A DNA stretch of 64,000 nt from Cytophagales bacterium (GTDB taxonomy: Bacteria; Bacteroidota; Bacteroidia; Cytophagales; Thermoflexibacteraceae), in contig JAAFKA010000006.1 in assembly GCA_013299115.1 (NCBI GenBank), positions 1-64,000 of the forward strand, in the 5' to 3' direction. Below, piece after piece: positions 37,692-58,345 of the stretch. The position numbers were made by a program, and so were the translations under genes. The notes under the pieces are model-generated. The model was given only the letters and a program-made list of their open reading frames with translations, had not been told where the DNA came from and did not search any database. Every line of letters begins with the position of its first letter. The first letter of the stretch is position 1.

Positions 37692-37693
37692 CT

Positions 37694-43198: not shown

Positions 43199-45115
43199 CT
43201 ATTCCTCTTGCGGTTCTACCAGCGTCATTTTATTGCGTTTCCACCAATGTTGAAACACCAAAATAGCCCAGATGTGGTTTTGTTCGTACAAGCCACCTTG
43301 CAACACTTTTTGTTTTAAGTCCTTGATATACTGCAAATTAAATACACCTTGTTCTTGTATAAAATCTTCAGCCAACAATTCATTAACCAAAGGGCGGAGA
43401 GAAGTCTGAAAACCTTTGACCAACGGCACATCAAACCCATGTTTGGGTCGGTGGTAGAGTTCGGCGGGCAACACCGAACGAAAAGCATCTTGCAAGATTT
43501 TTTTCTTGTGCGTAGAGTCTATTTTGTAGTGGGTGGGCAACGAAAAAGCAAAATCCACCACTCGGTAATCCATAAAAGGCTCTCTTACTTCTAAGGAGTT
43601 TGCCATAGACATAGAATCAACTTTGTGCAGCATATCGTTAGGCAACAAAAGGTGGCAATCTGTCCGCAAAACTTCGTTAAAGTCTTGTCCTTCAATGGCT
43701 TGCAAAATAGAAGCCTTGCGGTTTTTATAGTCCGTCAAAGCTATTTTGGCTTGCACCTCACCCGAAAACAAAGTGGGCAAATTGGTTTCAGGCATAAAAC
43801 TACTCAAAAACCAATACCTTTCTTGTGGGGCTAATTGGCTACTCTGCCCAAAACGGACTAATTGGCGGATTTTATTACTCCACGAACTATTGCGTGATTG
43901 GGGCAATTTTTCGAGCAAAGGCAACAGATTTTGAACCATTTTTTCCTTGAAACCTGCATTGCGAATCAAAAATTCGCCTTTGTATTTGTTGTAACCTGCA
44001 AAAATTTCGTCTGCCCCGTCACCTGACAAAGCTACGGTGATTTGCTTTTTTGTCCGTTGGCTTAAAATATAAAACGGAATGGCAGAGGAGTCAGCAAAAG
44101 GCTCACCAAAAAAATCTAAGAGTTTGTAAATAGCCTCGAACAAATCATCATTTGAAAGGCTAAAAACAGTGTGGTCTGTCTTAAATTTATTGGCAACCAA
44201 CTGGGCATATTGCGTTTCGTCAAAAAAAGATTCGTCTTTGTAGCCAATAGAAAAAGTTTTGAGGTTGTTGTGCAGTTTGGCAGCCAAAGCCGTAATGACC
44301 GAAGAGTCTATACCGCCACTCAAAAAAGCACCCAAAGGCACATCGGCAATCAATCGGGATTGTACGGCATCTTCGAGCAAAGTTACCAATTTTTTTTGTG
44401 CCTCTGCGTAGGTAGGCACAGGCGTAGGAGAAGTTTTGGTAATTGGCAACTCATAATATTGGTGAATTTGCAAATCTTTTTTGCGAATAATAGCATAATG
44501 GGCAGGTAGCAATTTGCGGATATGGCGGTAAATAGTGTGCGGGGCAGGAATATAATGCAGTTGGAAATACATAGCCAAAGCAGCAAAATCAAGCTGTTTC
44601 GGTGGGTTAAACTGCATGAGGGCATTCATTTCGGAGGCAAAAACAAACTTATCTTCGTCAAAATAATAGAGCAAAGGCTTGATACCCATTCTATCACGAG
44701 CCACAAAAAGAGTTTCGGCTGCGTGGTCATACACCGCAAAGGCAAAAAAACCTTGTAACCAATTCAAACATTTTTCTTTGTGTTTGATATACAAATAAAG
44801 CAAGACCTCCGTATCCGACTGGGTCTGAAAATTTACTCCTTCCTTTGCTAATTGCTCACGCAAGGGCTGAAAATTAAAAATTTCGCCATTGAATACTATC
44901 GTGAAATTGCCCGACTGGTCTGTCATCGGTTGATGAGCAGCCGAAGAAAGGTCTATGATAGACAAACGGCGATGCCCCAGCCCCACGCTGCCCTCGTGAA
45001 AAAGCCGACTGGCATCAGGACCTCGGTGTTCCATTGCCTCATTGACCGACTGCAAATGAATTTGGTGAATATCACCAATCATATTAAAAGAAAAAATACC
45101 GCTAATTCCGCACAT
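43199..45115 (-). CDS. asnB: asparagine synthetase (glutamine-hydrolysing)
   Basis: A 638-residue enzyme that makes asparagine from aspartate, ATP and glutamine. It starts MCGISGIFSFN with the catalytic Cys2 of the class II glutaminase (residues 1-210). The synthetase half has the PP-loop AFLSGGIDSSVITALAA. The 128-residue N-terminal part and a segment around residues 123-191 are duplicated elsewhere in the array. On the minus strand a TACCTTGC-like -7 box lies about 45 bp upstream. Confidence 0.93.
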   Translation of the reverse strand: MCGISGIFSFNMIGDIHQIHLQSVNEAMEHRGPDASRLFHEGSVGLGHRRLSIIDLSSAAHQPMTDQSGNFTIVFNGEIFNFQPLREQLAKEGVNFQTQSDTEVLLYLYIKHKEKCLNWLQGFFAFAVYDHAAETLFVARDRMGIKPLLYYFDEDKFVFASEMNALMQFNPPKQLDFAALAMYFQLHYIPAPHTIYRHIRKLLPAHYAIIRKKDLQIHQYYELPITKTSPTPVPTYAEAQKKLVTLLEDAVQSRLIADVPLGAFLSGGIDSSVITALAAKLHNNLKTFSIGYKDESFFDETQYAQLVANKFKTDHTVFSLSNDDLFEAIYKLLDFFGEPFADSSAIPFYILSQRTKKQITVALSGDGADEIFAGYNKYKGEFLIRNAGFKEKMVQNLLPLLEKLPQSRNSSWSNKIRQLVRFGQSSQLAPQERYWFLSSFMPETNLPTLFSGEVQAKIALTDYKNRKASILQAIEGQDFNEVLRTDCHLLLPNDMLHKVDSMSMANSLEVREPFMDYRVVDFAFSLPTHYKIDSTHKKKILQDAFRSVLPAELYHRPKHGFDVPLVKGFQTSLRPLVNELLAEDFIQEQGVFNLQYIKDLKQKVLQGGLYEQNHIWAILVFQHWWKRNKMTLVEPQEE

Positions 45116-45260: not shown

Positions 45261-47063
45261 CTATTTTTCTATAACCAATCTTTTTTGACTTACGCCTTGT
45301 TGGGTAATTATTTTTACATAATATACTCCTTTGCTAAGGTTTTGCAGGTCTATGGTTTGGTTGTTACCTGCGGTGTTTTCTCCACTTAACAGCACTACGC
45401 CCAATTCATTCATAATTTGGTAACTATAGCTTTGTTTGGTCGCATTTTCATCAAAGCCCAAAGTCAGGCTATTTTCGGCAGGATTAGGGAATAGACGCAT
45501 GGGGACAAAAGATGAACCACAATCCATTGCATACACTACACTGGCATTGCCACCTACTCCACAATCATTTTGAATACCTGCCATAACTGTATAACTCGTA
45601 TTGGCTGCCAACATTTGATAAGTGGCTGTTTGTCCTCTTGCCCAAACTAACCGCATGAGTGGGCTACTGTTCCAAACGTACATAGAATTTTGTCCGAAAG
45701 TGTTGGGTGGAACAGAGGCAAAAAAAGTAACATAAGTGTCGGCACAGATAGTATTAGGGTCATTCATAAACTCAATTGGGGCAATAGTAAACTCTGGACT
45801 GCCTGTATAGAAAGTAACCGAAGCAGGGTTGCTTCTACCGCCACAGTTGTTTTCGGCAACTACACTTACAGTAACCGAACCATTTTGGCTTTTACCAAAT
45901 ACTTCTAAAGAGGGTGTAGAGGTTACTAAGATATTGCTCCCTAACACACGAGAGTTGCCAATAGTCCACCGATAACGGACTGGGTTGCCTGTGGTGGGTG
46001 TGGTGGCTGTTAAAATAAAATTATTGTCGCCACAAAGTCCGTTGCGAGGAAAGCTGGTAAAGGTCATGTTATTGATAGGTACTAAACTGACGGTTACCGT
46101 TTTGGTAGCCACCTGCGTAGCACCGCAGCCGAAGTTGGCGGTGAGGGTGGCAGTTACGCCAGAGGTGATGGGGGCTGCACCACCAGCAGCATTAGAAGGT
46201 ACTAAGGTAGCTTCAGGGGTGGTAGTCGTTAGGGTCAAGGTATTGGTGGGCGTATTGGCAAAAGCCCAGCCACTGCCCGCAGGCACAGCCCAACTGTAAG
46301 ACGTGGCACCTGCCACGGCTGCCGCCGACAAACCTACCGAAGTGCTGCTGCCACACTCCACTTGGGCGGGGGAGGCTGCAAAGTTTTGAATGGTGGGAAT
46401 GGTGCGGGTAAATACCAATTCATCTGACCAATCACTATAATAAACTCCTCCGTTTGTGCCACATTGGAAATGTTTTGCTCTTACTCTTACTACACCACCT
46501 GTACATTTAGAAGGTTTTAATTTGATTTCATTATTATCTGTACGCCCTACAACTGTCCACCCAACAGGGTATTGCCATTCAAAAAAACTTGCCAAAGCAT
46601 TACTTCCTCCTGATATAGTAGGTGGATTTACCACTACACCAATTACTTCTTCAAAACCAATAGGAACATTGGTAGAATAATTAGCTTGAATGGCTGTAGG
46701 CTGTCTACCATTTAACGAAATAATATCTACAATCAAGGTAGGAGATGTTACTGTACAATTGACTGTTTGTTGGAATTCATTTACATAACTCCCTGTTCCT
46801 ACTGCTGTTATGCTTCCTTTTTGGGTAGTATTTTTCCAAGTAACAACACATACGGAACCATTACGAACAACAGTTTGTGCCTCGCCTGATACATTCCAAT
46901 TATATTGAAGATTCCCACATTGACCAGACCCAGTAGCTGTATAGGTAATTGGAATATCAGGACAGACATTCGTACTCAGTCCTGAAACAGAAATTTGAGC
47001 ATAGCAAGGCAGATATAAGTAAAATGCCAGCAAAGAAATAATTAGAAATTTGAAATTGAACAT
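45261..47063 (-). CDS. T9SS-secreted surface protein, full copy 1
   Basis: A 600-residue secreted protein. Signal peptide (MFNFKFLIISLLAFYLYLPC...YAQ), then several Ig/PKD-like beta-sandwich domains (Gly/Thr/Asn-rich, with C-x-G motifs) and a C-terminal type A sorting domain (PNPAENSLTLGF...GVYYVKIITQQG...RLVIEK). The last about 250 residues, from MTFTSFPRNGLCGDNN, are nearly identical to the second full copy, while the N-terminal half differs. It is co-transcribed with the beta-barrel gene upstream (13-bp gap) and lies at the array edge next to asnB. It probably acts as a surface adhesin or recognition protein, which is inference. Confidence 0.85.
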   Translation of the reverse strand: MFNFKFLIISLLAFYLYLPCYAQISVSGLSTNVCPDIPITYTATGSGQCGNLQYNWNVSGEAQTVVRNGSVCVVTWKNTTQKGSITAVGTGSYVNEFQQTVNCTVTSPTLIVDIISLNGRQPTAIQANYSTNVPIGFEEVIGVVVNPPTISGGSNALASFFEWQYPVGWTVVGRTDNNEIKLKPSKCTGGVVRVRAKHFQCGTNGGVYYSDWSDELVFTRTIPTIQNFAASPAQVECGSSTSVGLSAAAVAGATSYSWAVPAGSGWAFANTPTNTLTLTTTTPEATLVPSNAAGGAAPITSGVTATLTANFGCGATQVATKTVTVSLVPINNMTFTSFPRNGLCGDNNFILTATTPTTGNPVRYRWTIGNSRVLGSNILVTSTPSLEVFGKSQNGSVTVSVVAENNCGGRSNPASVTFYTGSPEFTIAPIEFMNDPNTICADTYVTFFASVPPNTFGQNSMYVWNSSPLMRLVWARGQTATYQMLAANTSYTVMAGIQNDCGVGGNASVVYAMDCGSSFVPMRLFPNPAENSLTLGFDENATKQSYSYQIMNELGVVLLSGENTAGNNQTIDLQNLSKGVYYVKIITQQGVSQKRLVIEK

Positions 47064-47076
47064 GATATATAATTGG

Positions 47077-47799
47077 TTAGAAATAAAAACTTACATAAAC
47101 TCCCCCCAAATAGCTTAGATTACTTGATAAACTAAAACTACTTAAGTCAGGTGCTTCGGTATAGACATTGTTTATTGTGCTACTCAATTTGCTAGTAAAA
47201 AATATACCAGCTATATTTAATGAAGTTTCGGCACTTACCGACCACCTTGGGGTAATAAAATATTTTGTACCCATAAATCCTTTGACTCCCATGATGTGAG
47301 ATATACTTTTAGTTGTAACCATATCTGTAGTTTGGTAGGATTTATCTGTTGTTCTGTCATAACCAATAGAATAGTATAAGTCATGACCGTAAAAGAATTG
47401 CCACTTATGAAATAACTTTTGATACTCATACCCAAAACCTATTAGAGCAGTGAGAGTAGTGCCATCATAAAGAGAAGTAGCAATACTATTCACTGTACCA
47501 TTGCCGTTAAATATTCTTTTGGTTTGTCCATCAGGAGTTACATCAGAAAAACTTAGTAAAGCAAATAATCTATAAGCACGATATTTTGTTATCAACTGTC
47601 CTTTGGGGTATTTCTCTACATTTTTACGAAAAAAAACACTTTGTTTGTTGCCACTATTCCAGTTCAGCAAAGGCAGAACATTGTAGGCTATTTCCCACGT
47701 GAGCCTGTCCATGTCTTTCTTTTTGGTGCTGTCTTGGGTCTGTGCTTGTGCATATAACGTGGCGAACAAACAGACGAAAATTAAAAGGTACTTTTTCAT
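47077..47799 (-). CDS. small outer-membrane beta-barrel protein, unit 1
   Basis: A 240-residue barrel paralogue. Signal peptide MKKYLLIFVCLFATLYAQA, then the conserved TQDSTKKKDMDRLTWEIAYN region, FRKNVEKYPKGQLITKYRAY, GYEYQKLFHKWQFFYGHDLY and a terminal FYF. The pattern of alternating hydrophobic strands and C-terminal aromatic residue fits a small outer-membrane barrel. Six paralogues occur in the window, with conserved N-termini and variable loops. It is transcribed with the T9SS gene downstream. Confidence 0.75.
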   Translation of the reverse strand: MKKYLLIFVCLFATLYAQAQTQDSTKKKDMDRLTWEIAYNVLPLLNWNSGNKQSVFFRKNVEKYPKGQLITKYRAYRLFALLSFSDVTPDGQTKRIFNGNGTVNSIATSLYDGTTLTALIGFGYEYQKLFHKWQFFYGHDLYYSIGYDRTTDKSYQTTDMVTTKSISHIMGVKGFMGTKYFITPRWSVSAETSLNIAGIFFTSKLSSTINNVYTEAPDLSSFSLSSNLSYLGGVYVSFYF

Positions 47800-47840
47800 T
47801 TGGTGTTTTATGTTTAGAAACTATTTGCAAAATTGCGGTG

Positions 47841-47848
47841 CAAAGGTA
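47841..47848 (-). promoter_or_regulatory. -7 box of the unit 1 barrel-T9SS operon
   Basis: On the minus strand TACCTTTG followed by CACCGCAA, about 45 bp before the barrel ATG. The same TACCTTTG or TAAGTTTG + CACCGCAA sequence stands at the same place before all six barrel genes. Confidence 0.6.
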
Positions 47849-47993
47849 GTTTTTTGTTTTTTTAGTTGGGTGTTATGTTTTGTTAAAAATTAACCCCGCA
47901 AAAGTAAGTAAAAAAATAATAGCTGATAGCCACCTAAAAGGTGGCAACTTTGTAACCTTTTTAGTAACATTGCAGCAGAAAAAAAACTGAATT

Positions 47994-48392
47994 ATGAAAA
48001 TAGGGGACAAACTAAGGCACTTTCGCACTAAAAAAGGAATTTCTCAAGAAACTCTTGCACACTTGTTAGGTATAGAACGAAACAGCTATCTCAAAATGGA
48101 ACATGGCAAAACCAATGTAAATTGGGAAAGATTAGAACAGATTGTAAAAATTTTGGAGGTAGATGTGTGGGAGTTTTTGACACATGGAGAAAAGCAAATT
48201 GTGTATGTGAATACAGATAACAATGGACAAATTACGAATAGTGGCAACATCAATGTGTATAACCAGAAAGAAGACCTTGCAGAAAAATACAAAGCCTTAG
48301 AAATTAAATTGGCTGTTTTAGAAGAAAGAAATAGCCGTTTGGAGGCTGAAAATGAATTTTATAAGAAAATTTTAGAGGGAAGGAATAGGTAA
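47994..48392 (+). CDS. XRE-family regulator with C-terminal coiled coil, unit 1
   Basis: 132 residues. HTH_3 domain at about 1-60 (LRHFRTKKGISQETLAHLLG, IERNSYLKMEHGKTNVNWER), a linker and a coiled coil at about 90-130 (ALEIKLAVLEERNSRLEAE). It is divergent from the barrel gene of unit 1. A palindrome GCCACCT-AAA-AGGTGGC at 47929-47945 sits before it. Likely a DNA-binding regulator of the divergent promoter, by position only. Confidence 0.85.
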   Translation: MKIGDKLRHFRTKKGISQETLAHLLGIERNSYLKMEHGKTNVNWERLEQIVKILEVDVWEFLTHGEKQIVYVNTDNNGQITNSGNINVYNQKEDLAEKYKALEIKLAVLEERNSRLEAENEFYKKILEGRNR

Positions 48393-49216
48393 GACGTGGC
48401 ACCTGCCACGGCTGCTGCCGACAAACCTACCGAAGTGCTGCTGCCACACTCCACTTGGGCGGGGGAGGCTGCAAAGTTTTGAATGGTGGGAATGGTGCGG
48501 GTAACAGGCACTGCAAACCAATCACTGTAATAGTTTCCTTGTGGGTCGTTAGGATTACCACAAGCCGAAATTACACCACGCACCCTGATATTGCCACCTG
48601 TGCAACGGTCTGGGGTAACATTTACCGTTGTGCCTGTCTGTCCACCTACAAAAGTCCAGTTTGCGGGGATTTGCCACTGGTAAAAAGAGGCTTCATATTG
48701 TTTATTGGTGTATTTGATAAACATCTTTTCTATAGACAAGGTTAGCTGCCGAGTATCACCAATTACTGTGCTAAAAGAAGTTACAGGGTCGTTGTTACTC
48801 GTAGAGTTAGTAAAGACAATAACCATGTTTTTGGGTTGCTCACCTGCAAGAGAACGAATAGCAATCTCAATAGTTTGCCCATTAGATGAGGTGCTGAGAG
48901 AAGAACAACTACTGCCACAACTGGCATTAAGTCGCAATTTGCCTAATTCGGTTGTATTATTCCATACTACATAACCAATTAATTTGCCACCTTCTACTTT
49001 TTGGCTAATTAATGTACCATTAGTGGGTGTAAAAATGGGAGTGCAACTTCCAATACCGCAACCAGTTTGAGTTGGAGGGGTTGCTTCGTATTTGTATTGC
49101 TGACCTGGGCATACACCATTGTCATCTCCTGAAATAGTCCATTGTGCGGAGAGTTTTGAATTGAATAAAAGCATCAAGAGTGATGCGAACAAGAAATTTA
49201 ACTTGTAATTTTTCAT
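48359..49216 (-). pseudogene. truncated T9SS surface gene of unit 2 (N-terminal cassette only)
   Basis: Signal peptide (MKNYKLNFLFASLLMLLFNS...LSAQ) and two beta domains are intact, but the gene ends after AAAVAGATSY and the last codons come from the opposite strand of the XRE gene's 3' end (LFLPSKIFL). No sorting domain follows. The last about 40 residues (TIPTIQNFAASPAQVECGSS and on) are shared with full copy 1. It is a 3'-truncated copy and could be a silent donor. Confidence 0.85.
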
Positions 49217-49257
49217 AATTTGAATTTGGTTTAATTGAAAATAAAATAGAGAGAAAA

Positions 49258-49941
49258 TTAGAAATGAAAACTTGCAAATATTGCGTTTAAATAATAGAAA
49301 GTAGCAAAGAACTCCACCCTGCTTACATCATAATTACGTCCTTTGGTTGGTAATTCTTCGAGCATATTATTTATTAATGTTGCTCGACTATACAAGGCTG
49401 TTTCCGTTGAAATAGAAAATCGTGGGCTTATAAAATACTTAAACCCCAAAAAAGGCTTTATACCAAGTGAGTTATTAAATGATTTATATGTTGATTGTTC
49501 TTGCATACTAAAATAGTTTGTAGTTTTTGAATACCTTAATTGGTATTCAAAATCATAGCCATAATAAAACTGCCACTTATTAAAAACTTGTTGATATTCA
49601 TAACCCACTTGAATATTTAAATCAAAGGTATTACTCTCTTGGTCATTAAAATTTTTAGTATTATCAAATTGGCGAGGGTTATTGTAGAAATATACGCCCC
49701 CCATTAAACGATAAGCCCTATATTTAGGAGTCAAAGAGCCTTTTGAATATTTTTCTATATTCTTTCTTGTCAAAAGTCCTAAATATGAGGTATTGGATTT
49801 CCAATTCAACAAAGGCAGGGCATTATAAGCTATTTCCCATGTGAGCCTGTCTATGTCTTTTTTCTTGGTGCTGTCTTGGGTTTGTGCTTGTGCGTATAGC
49901 GTGGCGAGCAAGCAGACGAAAATTAAAAGGTACTTTTTCAT
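49258..49941 (-). CDS. small outer-membrane beta-barrel protein, unit 2
   Basis: A 227-residue barrel paralogue. Same N-terminus (MKKYLLIFVCLLATLYAQAQ) and TQDSTKKKDIDRLTWEIAYN region; the middle differs. It ends NAIFASFHF. TAAGTTTG (minus strand, 49983-49990) plus CACCGCAA is its -7 box. Confidence 0.75.
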   Translation of the reverse strand: MKKYLLIFVCLLATLYAQAQTQDSTKKKDIDRLTWEIAYNALPLLNWKSNTSYLGLLTRKNIEKYSKGSLTPKYRAYRLMGGVYFYNNPRQFDNTKNFNDQESNTFDLNIQVGYEYQQVFNKWQFYYGYDFEYQLRYSKTTNYFSMQEQSTYKSFNNSLGIKPFLGFKYFISPRFSISTETALYSRATLINNMLEELPTKGRNYDVSRVEFFATFYYLNAIFASFHF

Positions 49942-49982
49942 TTGGTTTTATCTATTTTTAAGTTTGTTGCAAAATTGCGGTG

Positions 49983-49990
49983 CAAACTTA
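49983..49990 (-). promoter_or_regulatory. -7 box of unit 2
   Basis: Minus-strand TAAGTTTG followed by CACCGCAA about 40 bp before the barrel ATG. A second, weaker copy (CACCTTTGCACCGCAA) lies about 90 bp further upstream. Confidence 0.55.
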
Positions 49991-50187
49991 GGTGTTTTTA
50001 TTGGTAAGAAAAGGTTAAAAAATGTTAGTATTTGTTAGATTTTCTTAAAATTTCTTACCTCGTACTTTTTGCGGTGCAAAGGTGGAAAATATTTATGGGG
50101 TGGTTGGCACAAAAAAAGAATAATAAAATTCCTTTTTTGTATATTATTATTCCAAAAATATTTGTAAATTTGAAAAAAATTACAGTT

Positions 50188-50570
50188 ATGTCAATTAATT
50201 CACGTATTCGAACATTTAGAGAAGCCAAAGGCTTGAAACAACAAAGAATGGCGGATTTGCTAAACATTAGCCAAACAACTTACAACAAAATAGAAAATGA
50301 GCAAACCAAAATAAAGATTGATATTTTGATAAAAATTGCCGAAATCTTGGAAGTTACATGGATGATTTAGTAACCAATGATGGCAATACGAATATTCAAT
50401 GCCAAAATGAAAATGCTAATATCAATAACCAACCTACTTTTAATAACGACTTTTTAGAGATGAAGCAACTCTACGAAAGGTTATTAGAGGCTGAAAAAGC
50501 TATTTCTGCTCAAAAAGATAAAAGAATACAAGAATTGGAGGAGTTGTTAAGGCGGAAAGAGAGTAATTAG
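50188..50570 (+). pseudogene. XRE-family regulator of unit 2, frameshifted
   Basis: The HTH part reads MSINSRIRTFREAKGLKQQR ... IAEILEVT and then goes out of frame at GTTACATGG, where the intact paralogue at 53631 has GTTACACTGG. One C is missing, at about 50357. The coiled-coil half (DDLVTNDGNTNIQCQ...) continues in the next frame to 50570. Otherwise the two genes are almost identical, so the frameshift is probably recent. Confidence 0.85.
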
Positions 50571-50588
50571 AAATTTGAAATTAAACAT
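50565..50588 (-). pseudogene. remnant of a T9SS gene start (unit 3)
   Basis: On the minus strand from 50588 ATG TTT AAT TTC AAA TTT CTA ATT can be read, the first codons (MFNFKFLI) of full copy 1. It then runs into the XRE 3' end. The rest of the gene is deleted. Confidence 0.75.
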
Positions 50589-50602
50589 GATTATATAATT
50601 GG

Positions 50603-51322
50603 TTAAAAATGAAAACTAACAAATACAGCACTCAAATAGCTAAAAGAGGCATATATTCGCATTCCGCTTAACTCAGGTATACCTGTTTTTGGAATTCCAG
50701 CAACTATGGAATCTAAAGTGGACGTGGAATGTATAATACCAGTATGCAAAGAAGTTTCTGTTGATACAGAAAAGTGTTTGTTTACAAAATATTTAAATCC
50801 CAAAAAAGGATTTATTGCAACAGCATAAGAAGAATGTTTATTTGTAACTTCTTCTTTTGTTGAAATGTTGGTGTCTGTTTCTCGCCTATAATAGTAACTT
50901 AAAGCAAGGTTGGAACCATAGTAAAATTGCCAACGGTTAAATACTTGTTGATATTCATAGCCTGCACTAAGTACTGAATTAAAATAAGTTGCATCAGTAA
51001 AAGAAGTTGCATAACCTCCTGTTGTGCCATTATAAATTCTTGAGTTGGGGTAATTAGGATTATTGTTCCAAAAACTAAAAGTAGCTTTCAGTCTATACGC
51101 CCTATGTTTAACCGTCAGTTGCCCTTTCGGATACTTCTCTACATTTTTTCGAAACAAAATACTTTGCTCACTGCCACCATTCCAGTTCAATAAAGGCAGG
51201 GCATTATAAGCTATTTCCCATGTGAGCCTGTCCATGTCTTTCTTTTTGGTGCTGTCTTGGGTCTGTGCTTGTGCGTATAGTGTGGCGAACAAGCAGACGA
51301 AAATTAAAAGGTACTTTTTCAT
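50603..51322 (-). CDS. small outer-membrane beta-barrel protein, unit 3
   Basis: A 239-residue barrel paralogue. The ATG at 51322 begins MKKYLLIFVCLFATLYAQAQ; the upstream in-frame Met lies in the promoter side. It contains QSILFRKNVEKYPKGQLTVK, GYEYQQVFNRWQFYYGS and KPFLGFKYF-like blocks and ends YLSAVFVSFHF. Confidence 0.75.
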   Translation of the reverse strand: MKKYLLIFVCLFATLYAQAQTQDSTKKKDMDRLTWEIAYNALPLLNWNGGSEQSILFRKNVEKYPKGQLTVKHRAYRLKATFSFWNNNPNYPNSRIYNGTTGGYATSFTDATYFNSVLSAGYEYQQVFNRWQFYYGSNLALSYYYRRETDTNISTKEEVTNKHSSYAVAINPFLGFKYFVNKHFSVSTETSLHTGIIHSTSTLDSIVAGIPKTGIPELSGMRIYASFSYLSAVFVSFHF

Positions 51323-51362
51323 TTGGTGTTTTATGTTTAAAACTATTTGCAAAATTGCGGTG

Positions 51363-51370
51363 CAAAGGTA
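51363..51370 (-). promoter_or_regulatory. -7 box of unit 3
   Basis: Minus-strand TACCTTTG followed by CACCGCAA, about 40 bp before the barrel ATG, as in unit 1. Confidence 0.55.
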
Positions 51371-51490
51371 GTTTTTTGCTTTTTTAGTTGGGTGTTATGT
51401 TTTGTTAAATTTTTGGCAATACCTTACTTGGTTTTTGCGGTGCAAAGGTGAGTATAAGATTTTAAACCATTGCAAATAAAATCAGATAAA

Positions 51491-51525
51491 AATTATATGA
51501 TTTTCATATAATTTTTTTATCTTTG
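51491..51525 (+). promoter_or_regulatory. promoter with perfect operator-like palindrome before the unit 3 XRE gene
   Basis: AATTATATGA-TTT-TCATATAATT (51491-51513) is a perfect 10-bp dyad. It directly precedes TATCTTTG (51518-51525), a -7 box, and lies about 30 bp before the XRE start. The layout suggests autoregulation. Confidence 0.5.
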
Positions 51526-51556
51526 TAAAATTTATAACCTTTTACAAGTATTTTAT

Positions 51557-51940
51557 ATGGAATTTTGGGTAAAAATTCGCCAAATTAGAGAGGCAAAAAA
51601 CAAAACGCAAGAAGAACTTGCTGAGGCTTTGGGCATTGCCCAGTCTGCTTACAACTTATTAGAAAGAGGCAAGAGAAAAATAGCAGTCAATGAATTGCTA
51701 AAAATTGCAGAGGTTTTGCAAACACCAATAGAGAGTTTTTTTAAGGAAGAGAGCAAAGCTGTTGTTTACAATCACCAACACGACAACGAGAACCCTATCA
51801 ATTATCAACAGATTTACAATGAAAAGTTTGATAATGAACGTAGTCTTTATGAAAAATTATTAGCAGAAAAAGACAAAATCATAGGCGACAAAAATGCAGA
51901 GATTGCCTACTTGCGGGAGTTGCTGGCAAAAAAGAGTTAG
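51557..51940 (+). CDS. XRE-family regulator with C-terminal coiled coil, unit 3
   Basis: 127 residues. HTH at about 1-60 (FWVKIRQIREAKNKTQEELA, EALGIAQSAYNLLERGKRKI) and a C-terminal coiled coil (SLYEKLLAEKDKIIGDKNAE). It differs in sequence from the unit 1 and unit 4 regulators. Its 3' end meets a truncated T9SS gene on the opposite strand, overlapping by 4 bp. Confidence 0.85.
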   Translation: MEFWVKIRQIREAKNKTQEELAEALGIAQSAYNLLERGKRKIAVNELLKIAEVLQTPIESFFKEESKAVVYNHQHDNENPINYQQIYNEKFDNERSLYEKLLAEKDKIIGDKNAEIAYLRELLAKKS

Positions 51941-52614
51941 CAAAAATTAATATAGTCATTGGGGTTGCCACAAGCTATGATTACGCCACGCACCCTGATA
52001 TTGCCACCTGTGCAACGGTCGGGGGTAACTCGTATTTCCTGCCCTGTCTGCCCACCTACAAAAGCCCAATTTGCGGGTATTTGCCATTGGTAAAAAGAGG
52101 CTTCATATTGTTTATTGGTGTATTTGATAAACATCTTTTCAATAGACAAGGTTAGCTGCCGAGTATCACCAATTACTGTGCTAAAAGAGGTAACAGGGTC
52201 GTTGTTACTCGTAGAGTTAGTAAAGACAATAACCATGTTTTTGGGTTGCTCACCTGCAAGGGAACGAATGGAAACATCTGTAATTTGCCATGAAGTATTT
52301 AAACTTGAACAAGTATTAGCGCAACTTGAAGTCATGAATTTTAGTTACCCTAATTCAGTAGTATTGTTCCATCTGACGTAAGCCTCAAATTTATCCTTAC
52401 GTACTAAGGTGCCTCCTTGTGTTACGTCCCAGTCTGGTGTACAATTACCATATCCACAACTTGCTGTACTTGGTGGCGTGGCTGTATATTTGTATAACTG
52501 ACCAGGGCATACAGCAGTTGTTTCTCCTGAAATAGTCCACTGTGCGGAGAGGTTTGAATTGAATAAAAGCACCAACAGAGATGCGAACAAGAAATTTAAC
52601 TTGTAATTTTTCAT
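51937..52614 (-). pseudogene. T9SS surface gene of unit 4, nonsense-mutated and 3'-truncated
   Basis: Begins MKNYKLNFLFASLLVLLFNS with a signal peptide and reads VRWNNTTELG, then TAA where the paralogue has AAA (Lys), and continues in the same frame with MTSSCANTCSSLN and GEQPKNMVIVFTNSTSNN. It ends at RVRGVIIACGNPND-YINFC, cut at the 3' end of the XRE gene. There is no sorting domain. It is a silent, doubly disabled copy. Confidence 0.85.
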
Positions 52615-52661
52615 AATTGAATTTGGTTTGAGATTAATAAATTTTGAAACTGTTAAAATAA

Positions 52662-53384
52662 TTAGAAATGAAAACTGACGAAAATAGAGCTTAAGTAAAT
52701 AAAAGCAGCCTCAATACGAACTCCCTTTATTTCTGGTAGGTCCGTTTTTTGTACACCATTGATTGTAACATCTAAGGTGGACTTATGATAACTTGTGCCA
52801 ACATATAGAGAAGTTTCGCTTGATAGAGAAAATCTTGGGCTAATAAAATATTTGAATCCCAAAAAAGGTTTTAAGCCAACTCCATAAGAAGATATTTGCT
52901 TTATAACTTCTTCTTTTGGAGAGGCATTAGTATCTTTTTGTCGATTATAAGAGTAATTGGTAGCAAGGTCTGAGCCATAGTAAAACTGCCAACGATTAAA
53001 TAATTGTTGGTATTCATAGCCTGCACTGATACTTAAATTGAAATAAGTTTCATCAGGGGAAGATGTGCCATAACCACCAGTTGTGCCATTGTAAATTCTT
53101 GAGTTGGGGTAGTTGGGTTTGCTATCCCAAAAAATAAAAGTAGTTTTTAACCTATATGCCCTATGTTTAACTACTAATTGCCCTTTCGGATACTTCTCTA
53201 CATTTTTACGAAACAAAATACTTTGCCCATTTCCACCATTCCAGTTCAACAAAGGCAGGGCATTATAAGCTATTTCCCATGTGAGCCTGTCCATGTCTTT
53301 TTTCTTGGTGCTGTCTTGGGTCTGTGCTTGTGCGTGTGTATAAGCAAGGCAAGCAAAGGCAAAAATTAAAAGGTACTTTTTCAT
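52662..53384 (-). CDS. small outer-membrane beta-barrel protein, unit 4
   Basis: A 240-residue barrel paralogue. Signal peptide variant MKKYLLIFAFACLAYTHAQA, then TQDSTKKKDMDRLTWEIAYN, YKGQLVVKHRAY-like block and KPFLGFKYFISPRFSLSSET; ends YLSSIFVSFHF. The unit 6 barrel shares its signal peptide exactly. Confidence 0.75.
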   Translation of the reverse strand: MKKYLLIFAFACLAYTHAQAQTQDSTKKKDMDRLTWEIAYNALPLLNWNGGNGQSILFRKNVEKYPKGQLVVKHRAYRLKTTFIFWDSKPNYPNSRIYNGTTGGYGTSSPDETYFNLSISAGYEYQQLFNRWQFYYGSDLATNYSYNRQKDTNASPKEEVIKQISSYGVGLKPFLGFKYFISPRFSLSSETSLYVGTSYHKSTLDVTINGVQKTDLPEIKGVRIEAAFIYLSSIFVSFHF

Positions 53385-53426
53385 TTGGTTTTATCTATTT
53401 TTAAGTTTGTTGCAAAATTGCGGTGC

Positions 53427-53434
53427 AAACTTAG
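53427..53434 (-). promoter_or_regulatory. -7 box of unit 4
   Basis: Minus-strand TAAGTTTG followed by CACCGCAA, about 43 bp before the barrel ATG. A weaker second copy is near 53515-53522. Confidence 0.55.
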
Positions 53435-53559
53435 GTGTTTTTATTGGTAAGAAAAGGTTAAAAAATGTTAGGGTTTGTTAGATTTTCTTAAAATTTCTTA
53501 CCTCGTACTTTTTGCGGTGCAAAGGTGGAAAATATTTATGGGGTGGTTGGCACAAAAAA

Positions 53560-53596
53560 AGAATAATAAAATTCCTTTTTTGTATATTATTATTCT
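53560..53596 (+). promoter_or_regulatory. operator-like dyad before the unit 4 XRE gene
   Basis: AGAATAATA (53560-53568) is repeated inverted as TATTATTCT (53588-53596), about 35 bp before the XRE start; TAATTTTG (53608-53615) is a possible -7 box. The unit 2 XRE has a near-identical but imperfect dyad at the same place. Confidence 0.4.
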
Positions 53597-53630
53597 AAAA
53601 AAAATTGTAATTTTGAATAAAATTACAGTT

Positions 53631-54014
53631 ATGTCAATTAATTCACGTATACGAACATTTAGAGAAGCCAAAGGCTTGAAACAACAAAGAATGGCAGATT
53701 TACTAAATATTAGCCAAACAACTTACAACAAAATAGAAAATGAGCAAACCAAAATAAAGATTGATATTTTGATAAAAATTGCCGAAATTTTGGAAGTTAC
53801 ACTGGATGATTTAGTAACCAATGATGGCAATACGAATATTCAATGCCAAAATGAAAATGCTAATATCAATAACCAACCTACTTTTAATAACGACTTTTTA
53901 GAGATGAAGCAACTCTACGAAAGGTTATTAGAGGCTGAAAAAACTATTTCTGCTCAAAAAGATAAAAGAATACAAGAATTGGAGGAACTATTAAGGCGGA
54001 GAGAAAGTAATTAG
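53631..54014 (+). CDS. XRE-family regulator with C-terminal coiled coil, unit 4
   Basis: 127 residues, intact version of the unit 2 pseudogene: HTH (MSINSRIRTFREAKGLKQQR, MADLLNISQTTYNKIENEQT), linker rich in Asn and a coiled coil (MKQLYERLLEAEKTISAQKD). The start at 53631 is chosen at the conserved Met; the longer upstream frame runs through the promoter. Its 3' end overlaps an opposite-strand T9SS/asnB chimera. Confidence 0.85.
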   Translation: MSINSRIRTFREAKGLKQQRMADLLNISQTTYNKIENEQTKIKIDILIKIAEILEVTLDDLVTNDGNTNIQCQNENANINNQPTFNNDFLEMKQLYERLLEAEKTISAQKDKRIQELEELLRRRESN

Positions 54015-54067
54015 ACACAAGTCGAAATTACGCCACGAACCCTGATAGTACCACCTGTGCAACGCAC
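54011..54067 (-). pseudogene. T9SS gene scrap fused to an asnB fragment
   Basis: The last codons of the minus-strand frame read RCTGGTIRVRGVISTCV, the same block as RCTGGNIRVRGVISACG in the truncated T9SS copies. It is joined directly to the asnB fragment to its right, giving one chimeric open frame of 145 codons. Confidence 0.75.
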
Positions 54068-54448
54068 CGCAAAGGCAAAAAAACCTTGCAACCAATTCAA
54101 ACATTTTTCTTTGTGTTTGATATACAAATAAAGCAAAACCTCCGTATCCGATTGGGTTTGAAAATTTACTCCTTCCTTTTCTAATTGCTCACGCAAGGGC
54201 TGAAAATTAAAAATTTCGCCATTGAATACTATCGTGAAGTTGCCCGACTGGTCTGTCATCGGTTGGTGAGCAGCCGAAGAAAGGTCTATGATAGACAAAC
54301 GGCGATGCCCCAACCCCACGCTGCCCTCGTGAAAAAGCCGACTGGCATCGGGACCTCGGTGTTCCATTGCCTCATTGACCGACTGCAAATGAATTTGGTG
54401 AATATCACCAATCATATTAAAAGAAAAAATACCGCTAATTCCGCACAT
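54066..54448 (-). pseudogene. asnB fragment 1 (codons 1 to about 128)
   Basis: A near-identical copy of the first 128 codons of asnB, from MCGISGIFSFN to QGFFAFAV. The following spacer and hairpin (54449-54593) are also copies of 45116-45260, and the next gene ends like T9SS full copy 1. The glutaminase Cys2 is present, but there is no synthetase domain. Confidence 0.9.
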
Positions 54449-54526
54449 TTTGTTAGCCTTTGTTTATTGGTCTTTTTGTAGCTGGCAAGGTAGGAGTTTT
54501 GAGGGAATTAAGCAAAGTTTTAAATA

Positions 54527-54566
54527 AAACCCTTGCCTTACTTTGTAAAAAGTAAAACAAGGGTTT
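54527..54566. terminator. hairpin terminator, second copy
   Basis: A duplicate of the AAACCCTTG...CAAGGGTTT hairpin at 45194-45233, at the end of the second full T9SS gene. Confidence 0.65.
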
Positions 54567-54593
54567 AGCAGAAATGCAATGATGACTTCGTGC

Positions 54594-56402
54594 CTATTTT
54601 TCTATAACCAATCTTTTTTGACTTAGGCCCTGTTGGGTAATTATTTTTACATAATACACTCCTTTGCTAAGGTTTTGCAGGTCTATGGTTTGGTTGTTAC
54701 CTGCGGTGTTTTCGCCACTTAACAGTACGATACCTAATTCATTCATAATTTGGTAACTATAGCTTTGTTTGGTCGCATTTTCATCAAAGCCCAAAGTCAG
54801 GCTATTTTCGGCAGGATTGGGGAATAGACGCATGGGGACATACGACCCACCACCACTACACTCTGCTGCATAAACAACTACAGCATTTTCGCCTATACCA
54901 CAGCTATTTTGAATAGCTGCGGCTACTGTATAAGCCGTATTTGGTGTAAGCATTTGGTAGGTTGCTGTTTGCCCACTTGCCCAAATTAATTGCATGGCAG
55001 GGCTTCTGTTCCACACATAAGTAGAACTCTCACCAAAGGTAGTAGGAGGTACAGAGGCAAAAAAAGTAACATAAGTATTGGCACAGATAGTATTGGGGTC
55101 TTTGGTAAACTCAATGGGAATAATGGTAAACTCTGGTCTGCCTACAAAGAAAGTAACCGAAGCAGGGTTGCTTCTGCCGCCACAGTTGTTTTCGGCAACT
55201 ACACTTACAGTAACCGAACCATTTTGGCTTTTACTAAATACTTCTAAAGAGGGTGTAGAGGTTACTAAGGTATTGCTCCCTAACACACGAGAGTTGCCAA
55301 TAGTCCACCGATAACGGACTGGGTTGCCTGTGGTGGGTGTGGTGGCTGTTAAAATAAAATTATTGTCGCCACAAAGTCCATTGCGGGGGAAGCTGGTGAA
55401 GGTCATGCTGCCCACGCTATTGTCAAATGGAATGGCTCTGTTGGTTGTTATTGTTTTTGTATTATTACAAAGAACAGCAGTAGCCTCTATATTTATGCTG
55501 GTAGTTCTGCCATCTGGCACAAGTGTAATTGTGGGTACTGTTGTACTAAAATTACCTGCGACAGGTAGCGGTGTAGTAAGTCCTTGCACTCGCCAACCAA
55601 CGGGAAATTTCCAATTATACTTCTCTGCACAAGCAAGACTTGGAGCAGAAATGGTAACGGGTGTCAAATCATCACATTTTGCCACATAGTTGCTGGGTGA
55701 AAAACTAAGGGTAAAACTGGCAGTGTTTCTTTTTACTTTTATTTCTACAATTTTGCTATGGTAAGGTGCTGCAAAGCAGTATTCTGTACTGGCAGCCATA
55801 GCCGTAAAAGTACCTTCTATACAGCCATTGGGCAAGGTAAGTGTAATGCTATTGTTGCCATTTACAGCACCCACACCCCAGTTGCTTGTCCAGCCTGCGG
55901 GCAACACATACCTGTATGTGCTAACAGGTGAATTGTTAGGATAGACCATCTGTTTAAAATCTACTCTGACCGTATTGGTGCAATAAGGCATCAAAACCTC
56001 CAAACCGCCTGCTTCCAATTCGGGTGATTTGTCCACCAAAGAGTTGATAGCAATTTCTATTTCTTTGGTGGCTACAAGAATAACGTCATCTTTATCTTTG
56101 TCTTTCTGAGATGCCACAACTTTTAACTTAACTTTTTTAGAAACATTACTCCACTTTAAATTAGGGCTGTCTGTATCTGAATTTGATATTAGACTGGCAT
56201 CCTCTGCAGTCCATTGGTAAGTAATAGTCTTAGTACCACTTCCACTTTGAAAGCCAGTAGCAGAAGCCTTATAGCTTAGTAGCACATCAGGACAAGCATT
56301 AGAGGTAGAAGTACCACTAATACTTACTTCTTGCGCAGCAGCACTAAAAGATAAACAAAGTAACAAACTTAGTGTACTTAGATAAAATTTAACATTTTTC
56401 AT
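54594..56402 (-). CDS. T9SS-secreted surface protein, full copy 2 (unit 5)
   Basis: A 602-residue secreted protein. Signal peptide (MKNVKFYLSTLSLLLCLSFS...AAAQ), N-terminal beta domains unlike copy 1 (residues 25-330), then the shared block MTFTSFPRNGLCGDNNFILT onward and the type A sorting domain PNPAENSLTLGF...RLVIEK. The switch from divergent to nearly identical sequence is sharp, at about 55400. This pattern points to recombination. It follows its barrel gene. Confidence 0.87.
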   Translation of the reverse strand: MKNVKFYLSTLSLLLCLSFSAAAQEVSISGTSTSNACPDVLLSYKASATGFQSGSGTKTITYQWTAEDASLISNSDTDSPNLKWSNVSKKVKLKVVASQKDKDKDDVILVATKEIEIAINSLVDKSPELEAGGLEVLMPYCTNTVRVDFKQMVYPNNSPVSTYRYVLPAGWTSNWGVGAVNGNNSITLTLPNGCIEGTFTAMAASTEYCFAAPYHSKIVEIKVKRNTASFTLSFSPSNYVAKCDDLTPVTISAPSLACAEKYNWKFPVGWRVQGLTTPLPVAGNFSTTVPTITLVPDGRTTSINIEATAVLCNNTKTITTNRAIPFDNSVGSMTFTSFPRNGLCGDNNFILTATTPTTGNPVRYRWTIGNSRVLGSNTLVTSTPSLEVFSKSQNGSVTVSVVAENNCGGRSNPASVTFFVGRPEFTIIPIEFTKDPNTICANTYVTFFASVPPTTFGESSTYVWNRSPAMQLIWASGQTATYQMLTPNTAYTVAAAIQNSCGIGENAVVVYAAECSGGGSYVPMRLFPNPAENSLTLGFDENATKQSYSYQIMNELGIVLLSGENTAGNNQTIDLQNLSKGVYYVKIITQQGLSQKRLVIEK

Positions 56403-56421
56403 GACTAAAAGAAATTATGGT

Positions 56422-57084
56422 TTAAAATAAAAAAGATAGTAAAAGACGATTGCCGAAATCTCCTCCAACAAAGTCTGTTGAGAGAGTAGTACGATAAAGA
56501 TTAGGAGAGTTATTATTAGTTAGACTTTCTTGAAAATTATTGCTGTAGCTCATACCATAACCAAGTTCCAAACTTAATAGAAAACGAGGGGTAACATAAT
56601 ATTTTGTACCAATTATAAACTCTCCCCCAAGCAAATAATCATTGTTTGTTACTCCTTCTTGCTTATTTTTTGCAGTAGCTGTTTTTATAAATACACTTCT
56701 TTCTTTGAAAGAAAAATTACAATAACCAGAAATAGCATAATACATTTGTAATCTGTTATTATACTGGTAATGCCATTCGTAGCCAATTTGGGTATTTAAA
56801 CCAACAGTTTGGTTCTCTGTAATAACATTACCAGAACTTTCAGAATTAGTCTTACTTAGTCTTGGGCTTAAAAAAAGCCTATAAGCTCCTGTTTTTCCGT
56901 TCTTTTTTAGGTGATGCTTCTTTGCATAAATTGTTACATAGCTATTGCCAAAAATAAAAGCAGGTACATCACCGCCTATCTCCCATTTATGTTTCAACAA
57001 GTTATTTACTTTTGTTGTGTCTTGTGCTTGTAGGTTCATTACTGCCCTTACAATTATTAAAGCTATTAAAAGGTACTTTTTCAT
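56422..57084 (-). CDS. small outer-membrane beta-barrel protein, unit 5 (divergent)
   Basis: 220 residues from the ATG at 57084. It keeps MKKYLLIALIIV...QAQDTTKV but lacks the conserved KKKDMDRLTWEIAYN block; the rest (HKWEIGGDVPAFIFGNSYV, GYEWHYQYNNRLQMYYAI, GTKYYVTPRFLLSLELGYG) still aligns by strand pattern and ends LLLSFLF. It is the most diverged member. It is transcribed with full copy 2. Confidence 0.7.
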   Translation of the reverse strand: MKKYLLIALIIVRAVMNLQAQDTTKVNNLLKHKWEIGGDVPAFIFGNSYVTIYAKKHHLKKNGKTGAYRLFLSPRLSKTNSESSGNVITENQTVGLNTQIGYEWHYQYNNRLQMYYAISGYCNFSFKERSVFIKTATAKNKQEGVTNNDYLLGGEFIIGTKYYVTPRFLLSLELGYGMSYSNNFQESLTNNNSPNLYRTTLSTDFVGGDFGNRLLLSFLF

Positions 57085-57124
57085 TTGGTGTTTTATGTTT
57101 AAAACTATTTGCAAAATTGCGGTG

Positions 57125-57132
57125 CAAAGGTA
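57125..57132 (-). promoter_or_regulatory. -7 box of unit 5
   Basis: Minus-strand TACCTTTG followed by CACCGCAA, about 40 bp before the barrel ATG. Another copy of CTTTGCACCGCAA lies about 80 bp further up. There is no XRE gene here. Confidence 0.55.
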
Positions 57133-57240
57133 GTTTTTTGCTTTTTTAGTTGGGTGTTATGTTTTGTTAAATTTTTGGCAATACCTTACTTGGTTTTTGC
57201 GGTGCAAAGGTTAAAAATTATTTTGGGGCTGTTGCTACAG

Positions 57241-57264
57241 TGATTAGAAATTTGAAATTGAACA
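57241..57264 (-). pseudogene. remnant of a T9SS gene start (unit 6)
   Basis: From 57264 leftwards the first codons MFNFKFLI of full copy 1 can be read, identical in position to the remnant at 50565-50588. The rest is lost, and unit 5 promoter DNA follows. Confidence 0.75.
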
Positions 57265-57279
57265 TGATTATATAATTGG

Positions 57280-57999
57280 TTAAAAATGAAAACTAACATA
57301 AACACTACTCAAATAATTGGTGTTACTACTTATTTGAGAACTTGTCGACTCTTCTGTTCTTGTAACAGCCGATTGATTAGGGTCTTTAAATTCGTATGTT
57401 TGACTTCTTATTGTATAAAGCAAATACAAATTAGTTTCTGTTGATACAGAAAAGTTTTTATTTATGAAGTATTTAAATCCCAAAAAAGGTTTTACACCGC
57501 CAGAGTGGTGAGTCGTGTTTGTCAAACTTAGTAATAGAGAACTATTACTATTTCCATCAACAGCAGTCTTTTGTAGCATGAGATTGTAAACAGCATCAAG
57601 TCCATAGTAAAATTGAAATTTTTTAAAATAGTGTTGATACTCATAGCCTGTTTCCAAACTACCGCTAAAATGATAACCATCTTCTGTGTAACTATTGATA
57701 GTATTATTAAAGGCAGTGTATTTTCGAGTAGGGCTGTTGTGTGAAATAGCCAAATTCACTTTTAACCTATATGCCCTATGTTTAACTACTAATTGCCCTT
57801 TTGGATACTTCTCCACATTTTTACGAAACAAAATACTTTGCCCATTTCCACCATTCCAGTTCAACAAAGGCAGGGCATTATAAGCTATTTCCCATGTGAG
57901 CCTGTCCATGTCTTTTTTCTTGGTGCTGTCTTGGGTCTGTGCTTGTGCGTGTGTATAAGCAAGGCAAGCAAAGGCAAAAATTAAAAGGTACTTTTTCAT
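57280..57999 (-). CDS. small outer-membrane beta-barrel protein, unit 6
   Basis: A 239-residue barrel paralogue. It shares MKKYLLIFAFACLAYTHAQA and the first about 75 codons with unit 4, after which it diverges (KVNLAISHNSPTRKYTAFNN); ends YLSSVYVSFHF. The sharp switch suggests recombination between barrel genes. Confidence 0.75.
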   Translation of the reverse strand: MKKYLLIFAFACLAYTHAQAQTQDSTKKKDMDRLTWEIAYNALPLLNWNGGNGQSILFRKNVEKYPKGQLVVKHRAYRLKVNLAISHNSPTRKYTAFNNTINSYTEDGYHFSGSLETGYEYQHYFKKFQFYYGLDAVYNLMLQKTAVDGNSNSSLLLSLTNTTHHSGGVKPFLGFKYFINKNFSVSTETNLYLLYTIRSQTYEFKDPNQSAVTRTEESTSSQISSNTNYLSSVYVSFHF

Positions 58000-58040
58000 T
58001 TGATTTTATCTATTTTTAAGTTTGTTGCAAAATTGCGGTG

Positions 58041-58048
58041 CAAACTTA
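58041..58048 (-). promoter_or_regulatory. -7 box of unit 6
   Basis: Minus-strand TAAGTTTG followed by CACCGCAA, about 42 bp before the barrel ATG. The second copy (GCGGTGCAAAGG) further right, at 58129-58140, is the exact point where the asnB fragment begins. Confidence 0.55.
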
Positions 58049-58138
58049 GGTGTTTTTATTGGTAAGAAAAGGTTAAAAAATGTTAGTATTTGTTAGATTT
58101 TCTTAAAATTTCTTACCTTGTACTTTTTGCGGTGCAAA

Positions 58139-58345
58139 GGGCAGGAATATAATGCAGTTGGAAATACATAGGCAAGGCAGCAAAATCAGGCTGTTTCGGT
58201 GGGTTAAACTGCATGAGGGCATTCATTTCGGAGGCAAAAACAAACTTGTCTTCGTCAAAATAATAGAGCAAAGGCTTGATACTCATTCTATCACGAGCCA
58301 CAAAAAGAGTTTCGGCTGCGTGGTCATAAACCGCAAAGGCAAAAA
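58139..58345 (-). pseudogene. asnB fragment 2 (codons about 123-191)
   Basis: On the minus strand it reads FAFAVYDHAAETLF, VARDRMSIKPLLYYFDEDKF and ALMQFNPPKQPDFAALPMYF, like asnB with a few changes. It begins where fragment 1 (54066-54448) ends, sharing about 5 codons around ACCGCAAAGGCAAAAA. Fragments 1 and 2 together cover codons 1-191 but are in swapped order. Confidence 0.88.

Follow-up and report, generated by a model that had tools for sequence, protein, structure and literature searches.

What kind of locus keeps six genes for small outer-membrane barrels in a row, most of them beside the wreck of a second, much longer gene? The question is raised by positions 45261-58138 of a 64 kb stretch of Cytophagales DNA (hereafter the window), an array of 6 small barrel genes, 2 full and 4 broken genes for surface proteins of the type IX secretion system (T9SS) with type A sorting domains, and 3 intact and 1 frameshifted XRE regulator genes. 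We show from aligned genomes that the barrel gene and the N-terminal half (N-half) of the T9SS gene behave as one exchangeable cassette, replaced as a block at a fixed site, with the C-terminal half (C-half) and the flanks remaining. We read the window as a likely stack of displaced 5′ cassettes, used and spare copies, some with an XRE switch.

Joint replacement of the barrel and the N-half

In 15 species of one genus from another family (g57, of family f10), the pair occupies one chromosomal site, where the upstream flank, the T9SS C-half and the downstream flank are common to all. Here and below, comparison genomes were taken one per species, and the trees were quick ones. Two loci, L094 and L100, align upstream over 5.3 kb at 84.7% identity, the alignment ending 17-22 nt before the start of the initial barrel; similarity is lost across the barrel and the N-half, and resumes inside the T9SS gene for 4.4 kb (79%). 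Two N-half classes occur at this site. On each of three trees, built from the upstream flank, the downstream flank and the C-half, 4 changes of class are needed; the barrel tree needs 1, a value that 2 of 500 shuffles reach. The barrel and the N-half have been replaced jointly at least 4 times, and the C-half and both flanks track the species.

The same association holds more widely. Across 30 pairs, the barrel tree requires 2 changes of N-half class, the fewest possible, and the C-half tree 7. The partial rank correlation of barrel and N-half given the C-half is 0.55 (0 of 2000 permutations), and that of barrel and C-half given the N-half is -0.19. Synonymous divergence (dS) indicates replacement for L206/L207, with 0.14-0.16 in the flanks, 1.01 in the barrel and 0.65 in the T9SS gene, and sharing between species for L202/L204, with 1.2-1.7 in the flanks and 0.26 in the barrel. 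By these measures the locus is polymorphic and allelic. The sequence-only reading of the window had proposed a surface-variation or self-recognition locus whose unit was a variable surface protein, its own barrel and a regulator; block swapping across species supports a locus that generates diversity and the first two members, and a regulator per unit does not hold as a general rule. The unit is better defined as the barrel plus the T9SS N-half, with the C-half as a constant acceptor.

By profile search, 88 of 390 genomes from the order contain a member of the barrel family, in many cases standing alone; barrels with no T9SS gene beside them are widespread there, and a contig scan gave nothing but lone barrels, in two Bacteroidales metagenome-assembled genomes. 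An initial tally gave 18 loci with the two genes within -55 to +28 nt of each other, and a reciprocal search brought the loci in which neither gene is broken to 29, from at least four families (f1, f10, f12, f14). The pair is common in f10. It stands in operon order, the T9SS gene usually 10-30 nt downstream of the barrel, and a relative from the window organism's own family (G006) has a barrel, a 27 nt gap and then a T9SS gene with immunoglobulin (Ig)/PKD-like domains. The search for the array in other genomes, which the sequence-only reading had suggested, recovered the pair, and one locus stacked like the window: at L104 (genome G317, f12) the block of promoter, barrel and T9SS N-half is tandemly duplicated (98.3% over 1691 nt), the second unit cutting short the initial T9SS gene. 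A different family thereby shows the architecture of the window, though with no XRE gene.

Variants of the arrangement were seen at several loci. At L030 (2738-9839; G006 contig 24), three T9SS genes share one common C-half and have Ig-like, trypsin-like and short S8-like N-halves; two of the three are preceded by small lipoprotein-like genes in place of a barrel. At L087 (4060-5637; G238, f10), which recalls L030, a T9SS gene with a serine protease-like N-half lies directly upstream of a barrel/T9SS pair. In several genomes, tandem barrels without a T9SS gene of their own occur beside pairs or close to them, at L100 (5370-6107), L171 (7464-8288), L172 (8695-9414), L195, L070, L098, L099 and L095.

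The stacked array in the window

Followed along the minus strand, with coordinates falling, the array begins with the middle fragment of an asnB copy (asnB′), barrel 6, a T9SS remnant, barrel 5, T9SS-5, the asnB′ 5′ fragment and a T9SS mini-fragment. It continues with XRE-4 (on the plus strand), barrel 4, T9SS-4, XRE-3, barrel 3, a T9SS remnant and the frameshifted XRE gene, and ends with barrel 2, T9SS-2, XRE-1, barrel 1, T9SS-1 and the intact asnB. In ascending order, with the evidence for each (ORF, open reading frame; HTH, helix-turn-helix), the parts are:

43199-45115, minus: intact asnB (asparagine synthase-like), 3′ flank of the array; ORF of 638 aa
45261-47063, minus: T9SS-1, full, 600 aa, Ig/PKD-like chain and type A sorting domain; PF19408, PF18962, TIGR04183; AF2 model all-beta
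46296-46411, minus: 116-nt stretch of T9SS-1 with a copy in truncated T9SS-2 (99%, same reading frame); repeat D16, ORF coordinates
47077-47799, minus: barrel 1; ORF of 240 aa, family alignment
47800-47993, no strand: divergent promoter region of barrel 1 and XRE-1, with one box, at 47833
47994-48392, plus: XRE-1, HTH and coiled-coil tail (PF13560/PF01381), its 3′ end abutting truncated T9SS-2 at the junction
48359-49216, minus: T9SS-2, truncated, 285 aa, variable N-half and start of the constant part; ORF, alignment
49258-49941, minus: barrel 2; ORF, family alignment
50185-50570, plus: XRE-2′, frameshifted copy of the XRE gene at 53628; matches XRE-4 in two frames, at 100% and 93% identity
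50571-50602, minus: T9SS-3 remnant (about 8 codons and intergenic sequence); repeat D14, sequence
50603-51322, minus: barrel 3; ORF, family alignment
51488-51516, no strand: perfect palindrome with 13-bp arms, candidate operator between barrel 3 and XRE-3; equalled in 1 of 200 shuffles
51557-51940, plus: XRE-3; PF01381, E 1.6e-16
51941-52614, minus: T9SS-4, cut short at XRE-3 and interrupted by an in-frame TAA (52345-52347); ORF, sequence
52662-53384, minus: barrel 4, modelled as 8-stranded
53628-54014, plus: XRE-4, intact; PF01381, E 5e-16; RstR-like match below cut-off
54015-54064, minus: T9SS mini-fragment; repeat with 48559-48607, 90%
54065-54448, minus: asnB′ fragment, codons 1-128; inside a 91.8% block over 1343 nt; dN/dS 0.03
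54594-56402, minus: T9SS-5, full, 602 aa; PF18962, E 2.7e-14; PF19408
56422-57084, minus: barrel 5, divergent, by alignment; weak PorG-like match below cut-off
57239-57279, minus: T9SS-6 remnant 3′ of barrel 6; repeat D14
57280-57999, minus: barrel 6; alignment with barrel 4
58139-58348, minus: asnB′ fragment, middle part; 96.7% over 210 nt

The six barrel paralogues that had been read from the letters are six ORFs, and every member of the family in the 5.5 Mb genome lies inside the array. Five of them share 48-72% identity with one another; barrel 5 (about 27%) probably represents a lineage of its own. Over about 80 codons barrels 4 and 6 agree at 97-100%, after which their identity falls in a single step to about 50%, and barrels 1-3 tend likewise to step from a conserved start to a diverged rest. 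The description of full, truncated and nearly deleted T9SS genes was accurate: 2 are full, one is truncated to 285 aa, one carries an in-frame TAA (absent from that description) as well as a truncation, and two are remnants of about 8-10 codons. The broken genes inspected have nonsense codons or truncations, with no repeat tract seen, and we rejected phase variation of the T9SS genes by slippage.

Between the two full T9SS proteins, T9SS-1 and T9SS-5, identity jumps sharply from 28% in the N-half to 87% in the C-half. The claim of near-identical C-halves therefore stands; to call the N-halves unrelated was slightly too strong, both halves of both proteins being chains of Ig-like domains. Among T9SS proteins of one N-half class, the initial 120 aa are more variable than the centre. 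The type A sorting domain (TIGR04183/PF18962) matches T9SS-1 with E 2.1e-12 and 4.6e-14 and T9SS-5 with E 2.7e-14, and the genome encodes the translocon protein SprA (TIGR04189 above cut-off, contig C6). The intergenic stretch ahead of asnB is 99% identical between array copies. Repeat blocks of 98-100% identity over 147-381 nt, and of 92% over 1343 nt, run through the array; given these identities and lengths, they are not chance. From the stepped identity of barrels 4 and 6 and of T9SS-1 and T9SS-5, the constant parts of the array are the promoter with the barrel 5′ end and the T9SS C-half, and the variable block is the barrel body with the T9SS N-half. Since truncated T9SS-2 keeps 116 nt in frame with T9SS-1, one crossover there would join cassette 2 to the constant C-half and give a complete new pair; the deletion predicted from such an event, between 46296-46411 and 48389-48504, is of 2093 bp.

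The common promoter box had also been recognised correctly, and it is array-specific: the window has 11 copies of TTGCGGTGCAAA, always within 47833-58138, and its 15-mer form ACCTTTGCACCGCAA has 8 exact copies genome-wide, 7 of them in the array. In Bacteroidota the -7 element is TAnnTTTG, which the box fits. Four barrels have an XRE gene divergent to them, intact in three cases and broken by a 1-nt frameshift in the fourth, as first described, and the 3′ end of all four is at, or no more than 15 nt from, the cut end of the preceding T9SS gene. A dedicated regulator in every unit, the further claim, was not found: XRE genes adjoin 4 of the 6 barrels here, and outside the window we found them at L174 (divergent to the barrel) and L030 (convergent to the T9SS gene), the remaining pairs having none. 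Because of this distribution we regard XRE as evidently a local add-on; as part of the core unit it is ruled out, being missing from nearly all other pairs. Each XRE protein probably represses or switches its own divergent barrel promoter. Among the four divergent regions a palindrome beyond shuffles occurs in that of XRE-3 alone, and we rejected per-unit operators. A canonical toxin-antitoxin or restriction-control role is not the main story, since seven other XRE homologues checked in the genome adjoin no barrel or T9SS gene and the PADLOC matches of the XRE genes are to generic HTH models.

Two asnB fragments within the array, which the sequence-only reading had not mentioned, are about 97% identical to the intact asnB. 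They stand in rotated order, the middle part upstream of the 5′ part, with about 20 nt common at the break (TTTGCCTTTGCGGT). This order rules out a split by simple insertion; it is as if a tandem duplication had been broken inside asnB, or a circle had integrated. The intact asnB has a single close orthologue in relatives. A genome of the same genus (G001) has no barrel and no T9SS match, and in the stretch read no gene of the array lies upstream of its asnB. We rejected a mobile element or phage, as there is no recombinase in the array and a search of viral contigs with the barrel profile confirmed no relative. PADLOC models gave 0 matches for two barrels and both full T9SS proteins.

Beside the array lies a candidate defence island (15741-38269), with type IIG restriction-modification enzymes at 15741-19196 and 27971-31096, an AbiL-like pair and a PDC-M07A/B pair at 36462-38269. 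Within it, a single open frame on the plus strand (32848-36396) carries both an RloB/AbiLii-like domain (residues 23-222, PF13707) and an entire valyl-tRNA synthetase; it lies directly 3′ of an AbiLi-like AAA gene (31472-32839), so that an abortive-infection partner is fused in frame to an essential enzyme. GC-rich palindromic elements at 34153-34239, 35422-35541 and 16905-16997, with CCCC..GGGGG arms, TGACG..CGTCA-like cores and encoded peptides such as PPLGVRGL, are inserted in frame, twice in the valyl-tRNA synthetase and once in a type IIG restriction enzyme.

What the pair may do

Joint block swapping at a fixed site is as expected of a molecular identity tag, or of a weapon-and-shield pair. 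We favour a polymorphic matched-pair surface recognition module, an explanation whose chances we judge to be evenly balanced. Its first gene would encode a small outer-membrane barrel of 8 strands whose outer loops are hypervariable. The model of barrel 4 has eight strands (pLDDT 81.3), with OmpW/NspA-like barrels as Foldseek neighbours; on our own assignment of sides from this model, column entropy is 3.12 near the predicted outer loops versus 1.90 on the periplasm side, so that variation is concentrated in the predicted outer loops. The second gene would encode a long Ig/PKD-like protein, exported by the type IX route and anchored via its C-terminal sorting domain. Its model is all-beta and resembles Ig-chain adhesion proteins including the bacterial grappling-hook protein GhpA, likenesses that are fold-class matches, not homology.

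Cassettes would move by homologous recombination between the conserved sequence ahead of the barrel and the T9SS C-half. The N-terminal Ig domains may form the distal tip and bind the cognate barrel by its loops, whether that barrel sits on the same cell or on a neighbouring cell of like type, which would make the pair an identity or adhesion tag. In the window, cassettes would have been stacked instead of replaced: each newcomer, with or without an XRE gene, would have cut the prior T9SS gene and left the old 5′ cassette, with its intact barrel, upstream.

Several observations weigh against this explanation. The barrel and the N-half lie about 10 nt apart, and therefore one recombination tract could yield their co-replacement without any contact between the proteins. 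Nor is the block strict in every case, since at L202/L204 dS is lower in the barrel (0.26) than in the N-half (0.94), making the barrel the younger of the two. The sequence-only reading had named separate occurrence of barrel and surface gene as a point against its own interpretation, and such separation is partly found: to the lone barrels of the order are added two intact T9SS genes without a barrel (L193, L194). The T9SS model is of moderate confidence (pLDDT 71, pTM 0.34), and the XRE genes are taken as switches from their position, with a palindrome beyond chance in 1 of the 4 divergent regions.

Little is known of how Bacteroidota recognise kin, or antagonise others on contact, at the outer membrane. 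We propose, tentatively, that the pair belongs to an undescribed system of cell-to-cell recognition or contact antagonism in this phylum, in which the tip of a T9SS Ig chain and a barrel act as lock and key, carried in one exchangeable cassette, and in which some genomes hold a regulated stack of alternative types that can be re-fused in frame to a common C-half. If so, whether as recognition or as weapon and shield, it would be a two-gene, naturally allelic system present in many species, its specificity open to swaps of natural alleles, and the T9SS would gain a role in self/non-self behaviour.

The orphan barrels bear on an antagonistic version, in which the T9SS protein would harm neighbours through their barrel, the cell's own barrel would be a protective, non-target form and the stacked orphans would serve as immunity. 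An intact barrel with a broken T9SS gene was found at 11 loci (L085, L089, L092, L093, L099, the initial copy of L104, L179, L183, L185, L186 and L196), and the reverse at 0 in forward and reciprocal searches, part of the loci from the barrel search being ascertained by an intact barrel, a bias that the reciprocal search lessens and that in some measure remains. Both genes are broken at 2 loci (L198, L201). Among the window's 6 barrels, 4 are intact with no functional T9SS gene to accompany them. If genes decay in proportion to their length, we estimate p at about 0.02 for 0 of 11; on this modest evidence the barrels seem worth keeping alone, which is the main support for immunity. Movement of the cassettes as a block also fits, as do the candidate defence island (two type IIG enzymes, AbiL, PDC-M07) 7-30 kb away and a precedent in which BSAP-1 genes adjoin a replacement outer-membrane protein gene (PMC4999547). 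However, the T9SS gene is about 2.3 times longer than the barrel gene and so breaks more often by chance, and Pfam, NCBIfam and the model, Ig-like throughout, revealed PKD/Ig domains only and no MACPF, pore-forming or other toxin domain in the T9SS proteins. We consider the antagonistic version unlikely.

The loop-side hypervariability of the barrels would also suit escape from phages, predators or antigenic recognition, with the barrel as an exposed receptor, the T9SS protein as its matching shield or scaffold, and swapping and the XRE array altering the coat. Allele turnover between species (flank dS 0.15 versus barrel dS 1.0) and the presence in one genome of several alternative barrels with their own promoters agree with this. 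Yet barrel dN/dS is 0.15-0.57 overall and 0.15-0.3 between close alleles, not above 1. On these values we rejected positive selection by point mutation, and because of them we attribute the variability to recombination of old alleles. Escape also leaves unexplained, unless by linkage, why the N-half and not the C-half changed with the barrel in 4 of 4 replacements, and we hold it to be about as unlikely as antagonism. Very unlikely, in our view, is a plain secretion or anchoring partner acting in cis, with variation by neutral drift and hitch-hiking: operon order, the 10-30 nt gap and the precedents of PorP-PG1035 and SprF-SprB for type B substrates (PMC9143113) recommend it, but the sorting domain here is type A (TIGR04183), proteins of which kind are reportedly anchored to A-LPS (PMC9143113), the barrel tracks the N-half and not the C-terminal sorting half, and barrels persist without a partner.

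Comparison with known systems

We found no description of the barrel/T9SS pair in the open-access literature, subscription papers lying outside that search. For each of BSAP-1/OmpR, TraA/TraB, PorP/SprF and the contact-dependent inhibition (CDI)/Rhs systems, one or more of the hallmarks tested are missing here, and we therefore assign the pair to none of them. BSAP-1 with OmpR/OmpS of Bacteroides fragilis, also from the Bacteroidota, sets a secreted-protein gene beside an outer-membrane protein gene, and its barrel is allelically replaced along with the partner gene, as is found here (PMC4999547). BSAP-1 is a MACPF pore-former, however, whereas here an Ig-like chain carries a T9SS sorting domain and one half of it moves with the barrel. 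The myxobacterial TraA/TraB operon, likewise highly polymorphic, encodes a surface protein with a variable N-terminal domain and a more conserved C-terminal part, together with an outer-membrane barrel (PMC6372800). TraB, though, does not set specificity and has an OmpA domain, whereas in the present pair nothing varies more than the small barrel; a PA14-like domain and MYXO-CTERM are found in TraA. Pfam and NCBIfam scans found no PA14-like domain and no MYXO-CTERM here, and no OmpA domain on the barrel. PorP/SprF-like barrels also are dedicated to a T9SS-exported surface protein, of type B (PMC9143113). Here the sorting-domain models that match are type A and, weakly, type C, with no type B, and the barrels, of about 220-250 aa and 8 strands in the model, have no PorP/SprF match in Pfam or NCBIfam.

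Two further likenesses are looser. TgrB1/TgrC1 of Dictyostelium are two polymorphic self/non-self surface proteins whose diversity comes from a hypermutable hotspot (PMC12324515, PMC4404348); they belong to a eukaryote with no barrel and no T9SS, and the likeness is of logic only. In Porphyromonas gingivalis, domain rearrangement and allelic exchange of surface proteins give recombination mosaics in a Bacteroidota species, with no paired barrel, and with no matched two-gene cassette reported in the abstract (PMC5266723). The CDI/Rhs polymorphic toxins combine a constant delivery part with an exchangeable module, an adjacent covarying partner and displaced orphans, all of which are found here too (PMC3150448). 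No toxin domain was found in the T9SS proteins, and the arrangement is the mirror image, with the variable part N-terminal and the partner, an outer-membrane barrel, upstream. If our proposal is right, the genetics of polymorphic toxins would be mirrored in these bacteria, with the variable end at the N-terminus, beside the gene of its partner, and delivery signalled from the C-terminus.

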